Positions 53,042 to 64,000 of a stretch of DNA of 64,000 nucleotides are shown here, piece after piece. The notes beneath the pieces were generated by a model. It saw only the letters and a list, made by a program, of their open reading frames with translations. It was not told the DNA's origin and did not search any database. A program made the position numbers and the translations under genes. Within the stretch, counting starts at the first letter, position 1, and each line of letters starts with the position of its first letter. This stretch comes from Candidatus Limnocylindrales bacterium (lineage in GTDB: Bacteria; Moduliflexota; Moduliflexia; Moduliflexales; JAUQPW01): assembly GCA_035559535.1 (NCBI GenBank), contig DATMBG010000051.1, positions 1 to 64,000 of the forward strand, read 5' to 3'.

Positions 53042-55390
53042 CTAATACGCACCTTTTCCCCGTAAAGCCACAGGGATTGTCCTCAAAATGATCTTTAGGT
53101 CATTGGAAAGGGACCAGTTTCGTATATAGTATAAATCTAGTTTGACCATCTCGTTAAAACTTAATCCACTCCGTCCACTTACTTGCCAAAGCCCTGTGAT
53201 ACCCGGTTTAACCCATAACCGCCGGTATTGCCACTCCTGGTACCGGGCTACTTCATCGGGTAAAGGTGGTCGAGGTCCGACCAGACTCATCTCGCCTTTA
53301 ATTACGTTAATCAACTGAGGTAACTCGTCCAGACTAAACCGCCTGAGAATTTTTCCGACCTTCGTTAATCTGGGATCCTCCCGGATCTTGAATAAAGGCC
53401 CATCTGCCTCGTTGAGATGCTCAAGAAATTCCCTTTGTTCTTCTGCTTCTTTATACATGGACCGAAATTTGTACATCAAAAATCGCCGCCGGTTTTGACC
53501 AACCCTTTCTTGCCGAAACAAAACAGGCCCCGGAGACTCCCACTTGATCAAGATTCCTATAGCGAGAAGTAGTGGGGACAAAAGAACAAGCCCGGTTAAG
53601 GAGAGGATCAAATCTAAAGCCCGTTTAAGAAAAAGATTAATCCCATGAAGGGGATCTGCTTCAAAGGTAATGGTGGGAATACCAGCCAGTTCCTCGATAG
53701 TAGCCCGGGGGGTTAAAATTTCACTCACATCTGTTACAACGCGAACATGGAGGGTTTCTGTACCATTCTTAGCTATCAGGTTAAAAATCTCGTCTTGCAA
53801 AGGATCTAACTCTGTTACGATCACCTCGTTGATTTTCTGATCTGTAACCAGATGAGGAAGATCTTTGAGGGTACCCAATATGGGAAGGGTTGACAGAGGA
53901 GTCGCTGAGAATCTGGACCCGGGGGAGATCTGGTATTTTTCCTCCTTACCTCCATTCTTAGTTTCTTTGCCTTCAGGCTTTCCGGGCATGGCCACAAATC
54001 CTACCACGTCATACCCCAATTCCCGATGTTTATCCAGTTCTTTTTTCAAACTGGAAGCTTCTAAACCGGTTCCTAAAATAAGAACTCGTTTTAAATCGAA
54101 ACCTTGCTTCCGTAAAAATCTGAAAACACCCACCAGGGTCCAGCGAAACAAAAAGGCAAAACCGCTTCCAAGGATTCCAAAAATAAGGGTGATGGACCGG
54201 GAAAACTCATAACCCTGGGTCAAATAAGTACCTGCCATAATCATAAGGCAACTGATTCCCATGGCTTTAAGGACCCGGAAGAGTTCATCAACCCAAAGAA
54301 GTCCCCTCGGAAATTTATATAAGTGAAGAAAATGAAAAACCGTTAGAGTCGTGACATTAATAAAAATCAAAAAGTCTCTATAAATCCAGAAGGGAAGATC
54401 CGGTTTTTCTAAAAAAAGTCCTATTCCGTCGGATAGACCCAGGGCGAGACTTTTTCTCAGTTGATAAGCCCCATAAAAAGAAAGATTAACCACAAGTATA
54501 TCCGAGATGACAAATACCGTATGGGTCAGGAGGCTGTTATATTTGCGAAGAAAATACATGAGATCGCTCCATTTATCGAAAAAATGAAGCATACTTCGAA
54601 GATGAGAGAAAAAGGTTCGATGGGTCGGTCCTCGGGCACTCTCCCGCCGGTGCTGATGGATCATCTCAGCATGGGGAAAATAGCAAACCTTCCAACCCCC
54701 TTTTTTCATCCGGTAACACCAGTCTACATCCTCAAAGTAAAGAAAGAATCGCTCATCCATACTCCCCACATCTTCCAGCGCCTTCCGTCGTACCAACATG
54801 CAGGCCCCTAAAACCCAATCCACTTCCCGAACAGAGGCATGATCCCAATCCATCATCAAATGATTTCGTACGATCTTACTATCGGGAAACAGTCTGCGAA
54901 GAGGAGTTCTTCTCAAAAGGAGCGTCCTGAAAGTATAAAAAGTTCGACAGGAGTACTGTAACGTACCATCCGGATTGAGAAGCTTTCCTCCTACGATACC
55001 TACCTGCTGGTTTTCATCCATAAACTGAACCATCCGCTCAATGGCGCCAGGTTTTACCTGAACATCAGGATTCATCAGCAGGAGATATTCCCCCTCGGCT
55101 ATCCGGATACCCTGGTTGATCGCACGGGCATAACCTACGTTGGTTTCGTTGATCAGTAGCTGTACCTCCGGAAATTTTCCACGAACCATTTCTACCGATC
55201 CATCCTCAGAATGGTTATCGATAACGATAATCTGTCGGTTGGCCGTTGTTCCCGGTCCATAGTTCATGGTTTGTGAAGTAACCGCAACTTCCTCGTCCGG
55301 ATCCTCAGGACGATCGGCCAGAATCGAGTTTAAACAAAGCTCCAGCAAATCCTTTGTTTTATAATTGACGATAATAATAGAGAGCTTCAT
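53042..55390 (-). CDS. Fusion: GT2 glycosyltransferase + polyprenyl glycosylphosphotransferase
   Basis: A 782-residue two-enzyme protein. Residues 1-270 are a GT2 transferase: SIIIVNYKTKDLLELCL, IVIDNHSEDGS, the nucleotide-sugar site LLLMNPDVQV and LYFEDVDWCYRM. Residues 290-435 are four to five membrane helices, 440-570 a Rossmann-like domain, and 590-782 the phosphoglycosyltransferase (WbaP/ExoY type): FLKRALDLILSLTGLVLLSP, MYKFRSM, RFSLDELPQLINVIKGEMS and VGPRPPLPDEV. The C-terminal enzyme should load the first sugar phosphate onto undecaprenyl phosphate, and the N-terminal enzyme could add a later sugar. Fusion of the two is unusual. Confidence 0.9.
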   Translation of the reverse strand: MKLSIIIVNYKTKDLLELCLNSILADRPEDPDEEVAVTSQTMNYGPGTTANRQIIVIDNHSEDGSVEMVRGKFPEVQLLINETNVGYARAINQGIRIAEGEYLLLMNPDVQVKPGAIERMVQFMDENQQVGIVGGKLLNPDGTLQYSCRTFYTFRTLLLRRTPLRRLFPDSKIVRNHLMMDWDHASVREVDWVLGACMLVRRKALEDVGSMDERFFLYFEDVDWCYRMKKGGWKVCYFPHAEMIHQHRRESARGPTHRTFFSHLRSMLHFFDKWSDLMYFLRKYNSLLTHTVFVISDILVVNLSFYGAYQLRKSLALGLSDGIGLFLEKPDLPFWIYRDFLIFINVTTLTVFHFLHLYKFPRGLLWVDELFRVLKAMGISCLMIMAGTYLTQGYEFSRSITLIFGILGSGFAFLFRWTLVGVFRFLRKQGFDLKRVLILGTGLEASSLKKELDKHRELGYDVVGFVAMPGKPEGKETKNGGKEEKYQISPGSRFSATPLSTLPILGTLKDLPHLVTDQKINEVIVTELDPLQDEIFNLIAKNGTETLHVRVVTDVSEILTPRATIEELAGIPTITFEADPLHGINLFLKRALDLILSLTGLVLLSPLLLAIGILIKWESPGPVLFRQERVGQNRRRFLMYKFRSMYKEAEEQREFLEHLNEADGPLFKIREDPRLTKVGKILRRFSLDELPQLINVIKGEMSLVGPRPPLPDEVARYQEWQYRRLWVKPGITGLWQVSGRSGLSFNEMVKLDLYYIRNWSLSNDLKIILRTIPVALRGKGAY

Positions 55391-61808: not shown

Positions 61809-62042
61809 TGTAGGATGATGAACTTCAATTTAAAGGTTAAAGTAATTTGATCGGCCAAAAAATGTAAAACTCTAGAATTTGAAAAGAAGTCTTAAAACCT
61901 CGATATGGCGTAAGTTCATAGATTTCCTACCGTTTTTATCCTTGACAGATTTCCTCCAGTTGAAGTAACCTAATTTTAAAGGTTATCATAACCTAAAACT
62001 GACCGAGTATACCCATAAGATGGCCTTAGTTTTATTTAATAA

Positions 62043-64000
62043 ATGAACCCACGCATTATCACAGACCCAAACCTTTTTAACGGAAAGCCTTTTATTAAAG
62101 GAGCGGGTGTCCCCATTCATACCATTTTAGATCTCCTATCAACAGGTTCTTCTTTCAATGACATTATTGCCAAATACCCCAAACTGACGGAAGATGATAT
62201 CAGTGCAGCGGTGGAGTATGCCCTTTTAAAAACCCGGGACGAATTATTGAAACCTCCTGAACCTTCCGAACCCAAACCCTCTCCCTCCCCTCAACCCATA
62301 GGTCGCGGATTTCCTCGTATTCCTACCAGGCTGACACAACCCAAGGAACCGGCTGGGGGACAGGCATCGGAATCCCAGGTACCTCCCCATCGACCCATAA
62401 AATTCACGGACTCCCGACTTTCCGGACCACCAGAACCCAAACATCCCCCCCGACGACTGGTAGAACCCAGGCCTCCATCAAATCCGCCCCCGGGATCTGG
62501 ACCCATTTCGGCCTCTCCCAGAGGACCCGAGTTGAAAAGGCCTTCGGAGTTCGATTTTAGGGTCGATAGATCAGAAGATGAATGGGAACTTTCCTTTTGG
62601 GATAAATTCACCCGAACCCTGGATCGAATCAAAACCTTTCTGGTTCTGACCACCAAAATTATTCTAGCCGTTCTGATTTTAACTTTGTTTGGCTTTTTCG
62701 TTTACTATCTGGTTAATGGGGAGCCAAGTATAACGGTTTTACCTTTTGAGAGCGGTATGGGATTTGAGACCTCGGAAGCCATGGGTGAAAGCCTGGCCAA
62801 TCAACTGGTCGGTGAATTGGTGCGAATTCAAGATCTTCAAAAGTTCTCTAAGGAAGAAGAACACCCCCTGATACGGACTCTCTTAGAAGAGAAGCCAATT
62901 CTTCTACCTCCTGCTACAGAACCCCTTCGGGTTACCTTTAAAAAGGCCGAGTCTATTCGACTGGGTTCCTTCAAAATACCCCTTTATCCTGCCCTTTTAG
63001 AGGCTAAAAAGCTGTTGAATCAGGAAGATAAATTCCTCTCAGGAAGTATCCAGAAATTTGGATCCTCCTACTCCATTGTGGCGTCCTTAGGCAAGAAAAA
63101 ATTTTTTAATGTATCCGAAACAGATCTGGAAGTCTATCCCCCTGCGCCTGAAACCGAACGTCCTGATGAGAAGATTCAGAAGCTTATCCGAATTTTAGCC
63201 TATAAATTGGCCTCTGCCCACGTAAGTACTATACTCCCCTCTTCTACCGATGAGGGATGGAGAAGTTATTTTTACTTTTCAGAGGGCTTAGAAGCCTACC
63301 AAAAATTTCTTTCAAATCCCAAAACCCATGGAAAAGATTGGGAATTGGCCCTGGATAACTTTCAAAAGGCTCTGGCTTTCCACTATGCAAATCCTAAGAC
63401 CCACTTTAATCTGGGATTGGCCCATGAGATCGCTGTAGATCAGGAGATTTCAGAATCCAAATCTAAAACCGAGCATTTGAACAAAGCGGCTGAAGCTTAT
63501 CGAGAAGCTATTAAACTGAAACCCGACTTTCCGGAAGCTTATTACCAGCTTTCAACCCTTTACAGGGTCCAGAAGGATTATCCCCGGGCCATATGGAATC
63601 TTAATAAAGCCATTGAAATTAAAACGGCGATCCGGGATCAAAATCTGAATTCCTCGACAGGTAGCTCTGAATTTTCAGATAAGTTTTTATTCCCCCTTCT
63701 CCATTTAAAATTAGGAGAACTTTACCTTTTAACAGGCAAATACGGGGAGGCCAAAAATGTCTATCAAAGTCTGTTGTCTCTAGGAGAAAAGGTGTCAGAA
63801 CCCGGAAAATATGATCCCACGCAGAAGGAAGTGGAAACCCTGGCTCATTACGGGCTGGCGAAAGTTTACCAGGCCTCTGGGGATTTTAACGCTGCAGTCC
63901 GAGAATATAACGAGGTTTTAAAATCGGATCTTCAACCCTCTTTAAAGACCCTGGCCCATCGAAGTATCGGACAACTTTATACCGAGCAGGGTAAATATTC
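62043..64000 (+). CDS. DUF433-TM-TPR fusion protein (3' end beyond the window)
   Basis: An open frame of 652 codons from the ATG at 62043 to the window end. Residues 1-62 are a DUF433 domain (ITDPNLFNGKPFIKGAGVPI, then LLSTGSSFNDIIAKYPKLTE and DDISAAVEYAL), a winged-helix-like fold known from antitoxins. Residues 75-170 are Pro-rich and disordered. One membrane segment lies at about 198-224. Beyond it a domain starts with SITVLPFESGMGFETSEAMG, like the N-terminal part found with adenylate-cyclase/TolB-like proteins, then at least four tetratricopeptide repeats (for example AAEAYREAIKLKPDFPEAYY). The DUF433 part is predicted in the cytoplasm and the TPR part outside. Confidence 0.85.
   Translation, partial: MNPRIITDPNLFNGKPFIKGAGVPIHTILDLLSTGSSFNDIIAKYPKLTEDDISAAVEYALLKTRDELLKPPEPSEPKPSPSPQPIGRGFPRIPTRLTQPKEPAGGQASESQVPPHRPIKFTDSRLSGPPEPKHPPRRLVEPRPPSNPPPGSGPISASPRGPELKRPSEFDFRVDRSEDEWELSFWDKFTRTLDRIKTFLVLTTKIILAVLILTLFGFFVYYLVNGEPSITVLPFESGMGFETSEAMGESLANQLVGELVRIQDLQKFSKEEEHPLIRTLLEEKPILLPPATEPLRVTFKKAESIRLGSFKIPLYPALLEAKKLLNQEDKFLSGSIQKFGSSYSIVASLGKKKFFNVSETDLEVYPPAPETERPDEKIQKLIRILAYKLASAHVSTILPSSTDEGWRSYFYFSEGLEAYQKFLSNPKTHGKDWELALDNFQKALAFHYANPKTHFNLGLAHEIAVDQEISESKSKTEHLNKAAEAYREAIKLKPDFPEAYYQLSTLYRVQKDYPRAIWNLNKAIEIKTAIRDQNLNSSTGSSEFSDKFLFPLLHLKLGELYLLTGKYGEAKNVYQSLLSLGEKVSEPGKYDPTQKEVETLAHYGLAKVYQASGDFNAAVREYNEVLKSDLQPSLKTLAHRSIGQLYTEQGKY

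Follow-up and report, generated by a model that had tools for sequence, protein, structure and literature searches.

Antitoxins of the DUF433 (COG2442) kind, for example VapB10 and the DUF433 portion of Rv2018, are soluble and come paired with a PIN/DUF5615 toxin. VapB10 of Synechocystis activates transcription from its own promoter, in which it binds an inverted repeat, and it also binds its toxin VapC10 (PMC3834315). In ToxR/CadC receptors, a cytoplasmic DNA-binding-type domain is followed by a disordered linker, one transmembrane (TM) helix and a periplasmic sensor. ToxR-like receptors are defined by the OmpR-type winged helix, and in CadC the disordered linker is needed for signalling (PMC5430869). 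A cytoplasmic N-terminal effector, one TM helix, a VLPF domain and TPRs make up the Ser/Thr kinase-TM-VLPF-TPR proteins (e.g. G000:C2, L146), and the same layout is seen with adenylate cyclase (e.g. Rhizobium WP_072641992.1).

The window analysed here is a stretch of 64,000 nucleotides (contig DATMBG010000051.1, positions 1 to 64,000). At its end lies a gene whose product carries, in this order, a DUF433 domain, a Pro-rich linker, a TM helix, a divergent VLPF domain and about 15 TPRs that continue to the C terminus. The reading frame ends beyond the window, at contig position 65120 (L005:7044-10121), and encodes 1025 amino acids. The features are as follows.

62043..64000, + strand: gene of the DUF433-TM-VLPF-TPR protein (residues 1-652 of 1025), running on to contig position 65120
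62055..62222, + strand: DUF433 domain (residues 5-60; AlphaFold2 pLDDT 86; best PDB match 2GA1, TM-score 0.81)
62247..62588, + strand: Pro-rich linker, probably disordered (residues 69-182)
62643..62711, + strand: single transmembrane helix (~residues 201-223), N terminus predicted inside by the positive-inside rule
62721..63272, + strand: divergent VLPF (FlgO/TolB-N-like) domain, predicted extracytoplasmic (~residues 227-410)
63273..64000, + strand: TPR array (residues 411 onward), extending to residue 1025 outside the window

The initial annotation had placed a DUF433 domain at the N terminus, and the profile search accepted it. Residues 5-60 match PF04255 with E=3e-16 and 59 bits (64 bits in a second search), well above the curated cut-off of 23.6, and the match spans positions 1-56 of the 56-position profile, i.e. 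the whole domain. No other Pfam domain was found in the N-terminal part, and an OmpR-type winged helix is absent. The structure of the domain was modelled with AlphaFold2 from a 6-sequence alignment; good fold matches were confined to 2GA1 and to Rv2018 in its DUF433 part (5AF3). Of 36 free DUF433 domains sampled, 35 (97%) have Arg in the GTR motif and the remaining one has Lys, whereas both orthologs of the fusion have G22 at this position. Rv2018 carries GSG there, and loss of the Arg is thus compatible with the DUF433 fold. Free members end in a short C-terminal tail after the domain, the place of which is taken by the linker in the fusion.

The linker (114 residues, 26% Pro) and the one membrane helix were likewise borne out. 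A hydropathy scan of the whole 1025-residue protein gave a single hydrophobic segment, at about residues 201-223, which is preceded by 6 K/R in 30 residues and followed by none in the next 30. Since the K/R lie solely on the N-terminal side, the N terminus is predicted to be cytoplasmic. Five Omp85 matches in the same genome lead us to expect an outer membrane and a periplasm. The protein has no cysteine. The VLPF domain and TPRs noticed earlier are matched by a purpose-built VLPF profile and by Pfam TPR models, the latter strongly from about residue 430 through the C terminus; their position outside the membrane is a prediction. The layout predicted for the fusion, with a single TM helix, a cytoplasmic N terminus and a periplasmic sensor, is that of ToxR/CadC; the DNA-binding-type domain differs, being DUF433 instead of an OmpR-type winged helix. 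The AlphaFold2 model of the N-terminal half was usable for DUF433, the TM helix and the start of the TPRs, but not for the VLPF part.

The VLPF segment is matched by the custom profile, but neither by the Pfam FlgO model nor by any other Pfam or NCBIfam model. The custom profile was built from the VLPF domains of another 18 proteins, among which are many clear kinases or cyclases. Residues 224-410 aligned to it with an hhalign score of 38.0, while 200 shuffles reached 22.7 at most (P=2e-5). When the first TPR was included, a collinear alignment of 178 columns was obtained with a probability of 94.6%, part of which is owed to TPR similarity, as TPR pieces alone give it as well. Direct sequence searches for the VLPF domain returned only noise outside the genus. 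A tblastn search of plasmids gave Rhizobium records only (24, with weak E-values), most of them annotated as adenylate/guanylate cyclase; the one record checked has cyclase, VLPF and TPR. A kinase-TM-VLPF-TPR protein is also encoded in the window's own genome, and in the fusion, too, VLPF lies directly after the TM helix and is followed by TPRs. In its TM-VLPF-TPR part, the fusion matches a signalling scaffold that is widespread and as a rule bears an N-terminal protein kinase or nucleotide cyclase. DUF433 thus occupies the effector slot of a known scaffold. The fusion differs from the kinase and cyclase proteins in its effector and in its divergent VLPF domain, which has an insert. A search of a defence-system library gave TPR matches only.

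The initial annotation knew of no described case, and we found no published description of a DUF433-TM-VLPF-TPR fusion. The sample comprised about 670 genomes (385 diverse ones and 291 of a DUF433-rich phylum). Among the matches listed from these, the same architecture appeared in no other lineage, and DUF433 frames outside the genus were at most 276 amino acids long; since similarity to the family or the fusion's domain decided the ranking of the listed matches, a fusion that has diverged far could have escaped notice. When 84,980 species were scanned with the first 459 residues, the same-genus MAG alone was found. Among the genomes sampled, the fusion thus appears so far confined to one little-known genus. 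Several candidates were rejected: the longer DUF433 frames of G153, G266, G289 and G307 are merely extended upstream, that of G227 has an HTH-like region N-terminal to DUF433, and a viral match (L037) was spurious and based on the linker. In the unrelated genome G097, the candidate proved to be a 214-residue DUF433-RNase H fusion (C35, L090:321-962, - strand; RVT_3, E=5e-25).

Two promoter-region features were noted before the gene.

61980..61994, strand not assigned: dyad AGGTTATCATAACCT, a weak candidate operator, 48 nt upstream of the ATG
61960..61989, + strand: promoter-like TTGAAG-18-TATCAT, overlapping the dyad; a consensus match only, no better than shuffles

Over ~190 bp ahead of the ATG, the two genomes of the genus share 88% identity. 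In the relative the dyad reads AAGTTATCATAACTT; both arms have changed symmetrically and the dyad is kept. Dyads with 7-bp arms turn up in 10-22% of shuffles, so that the dyad alone is unremarkable, and a genome-wide search gave near-matches mostly within genes and no visible regulon. We treat it as a lead, a weak candidate for an operator.

The surroundings of the gene differ from those of a VapB-type antitoxin. No PIN or DUF5615 toxin gene lies beside the fusion, either in the window's flanks or at the ortholog locus. Upstream, the transporter gene stops more than 500 bp short of the fusion gene, and on the downstream side the neighbouring gene is convergent, so that the neighbours are not in an operon with the fusion. 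Elsewhere in the genome, each of two complete free DUF433 genes is directly followed by a DUF5615-like toxin gene (assigned by eye). These pairs and the nearby sugar transferase genes are listed here.

Contig 12, L001:1079-1758: free DUF433 gene and DUF5615-like toxin gene
Contig 34, L002:1094-1683: free DUF433 gene and DUF5615-like toxin gene
53042-55390: exopolysaccharide sugar transferase
Contig 65133-66086: polyprenyl-phosphate sugar transferase

L004 on contig 22 gives a third DUF433 match in this genome, a fragment of 31 positions with no clear gene. After the convergent glycosyltransferase on the downstream side of the fusion comes a gene for a 105-residue TPR protein (L005:11197-11514; contig 66196-66513, - strand). 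In the relative, two additional ORFs (L036:8192-9738), one of which has FG-GAP repeats, lie between the queuosine-precursor transporter and fusion genes; the window has neither.

The fusion is real, conserved and unusual. Its ortholog in the sole other genome of the genus (G001; JAUQPW010000064.1, MAG isolate JZ-2.bins.100.201901) also has 1025 amino acids, is 94% identical without gaps, and lies between the same flanking genes. A chance in-frame fusion, a misassembly or a wrong start codon could be imagined, as two genomes only carry the protein, but the identical, gap-free length and the retained flanking genes in both genomes speak against chance or misassembly. Purifying selection acts on the whole protein, with a dN/dS of 0.11 (single pair), which also counts against an artefact; we regard this explanation as refuted by the ortholog. 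By segment, the single-pair estimates are 0.044 for DUF433, 0.07 for the TPRs, 0.085 for VLPF and 0.27 for the linker. DUF433 is thus the most constrained segment on this single pair, which argues that the domain is not a vestige.

DUF433 may be a protein-binding module instead of a DNA-binding one and capture, in trans, a PIN/DUF5615-type toxin or some different partner in the cytoplasm, such that a periplasmic signal would control toxin or RNase activity. Free DUF433 antitoxins do bind toxins, as in VapB10-VapC10 (PMC3834315), the genome has DUF5615-like toxins paired with its other DUF433 genes, and the GTR Arg is lost while the remaining domain is strongly conserved. This role nevertheless seems rather unlikely, since neither genome has a toxin gene beside the fusion and the free members' C-terminal tail is replaced by the linker. 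The nearby exopolysaccharide and polyprenyl-phosphate sugar transferase genes, and the scores of the TPR array against assembly TPR families of the PrsT/MamA/PilW type, would fit a TPR scaffold that works mainly in the periplasm, in the assembly of the envelope or of exopolysaccharide, with DUF433 only a cytoplasmic peg or oligomerisation domain. However, the neighbours lie outside any operon with the fusion gene, the TPR matches are unspecific, PrsT falling below its cut-off, and the lowest dN/dS of all segments is unlike that of a passive peg. We judge such a scaffold to be quite unlikely.

It is probable that the protein relays external signals to genes. The one-component transmembrane regulator of the initial annotation remains the best fit, given the known signalling scaffold and the DNA-binding activator VapB10 (PMC3834315); the lost GTR Arg and the lack of a regulon in our searches weaken it. 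In the form of a single-pass CadC/ToxR-like regulator with DUF433 as its putative DNA-binding part, we give it about an even chance. Since the OmpR-type domain is absent, the fusion would work like a ToxR/CadC receptor without being a member of that class. The cytoplasmic DUF433, winged-helix-like and DNA-binding in its free relative, would be tethered to the TM helix by the long flexible linker, and DNA binding by the fused domain is plausible by this analogy. VLPF and the TPRs would bind a protein or peptide ligand in the periplasm, upon which the receptor may dimerise and bring two DUF433 domains together on the dyad, much as happens in CadC with its own winged helix and disordered linker (PMC5430869). 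The bound pair could then alter transcription of target genes, perhaps of its own. Counted for the regulator were the real DUF433 with its 2GA1/Rv2018 fold and lowest dN/dS, the scaffold match, the kinase version, the conserved dyad and Omp85, together with promoter binding and activation by VapB10 (PMC3834315) and the CadC linker (PMC5430869); G22 for Arg, the frequency of such dyads in shuffles and the absence of a visible regulon were counted against it.

A modular effector-TM-VLPF-TPR signalling scaffold is known; new is DUF433 in the effector place. That an antitoxin-derived DUF433 was recruited as the DNA-binding output of a receptor scaffold, forming a toxin-independent regulator class outside the OmpR/ToxR type, is a tentative proposal with slightly less than an even chance. 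With the fusion, the question whether DUF433 alone is a DNA-binding or a protein-binding module can be put to a simple experiment. If true, the proposal would show how a domain of toxin-antitoxin pairs can part from its toxin to serve a membrane sensor as its output, and would add one more effector to those accepted by the common VLPF-TPR sensor scaffold.
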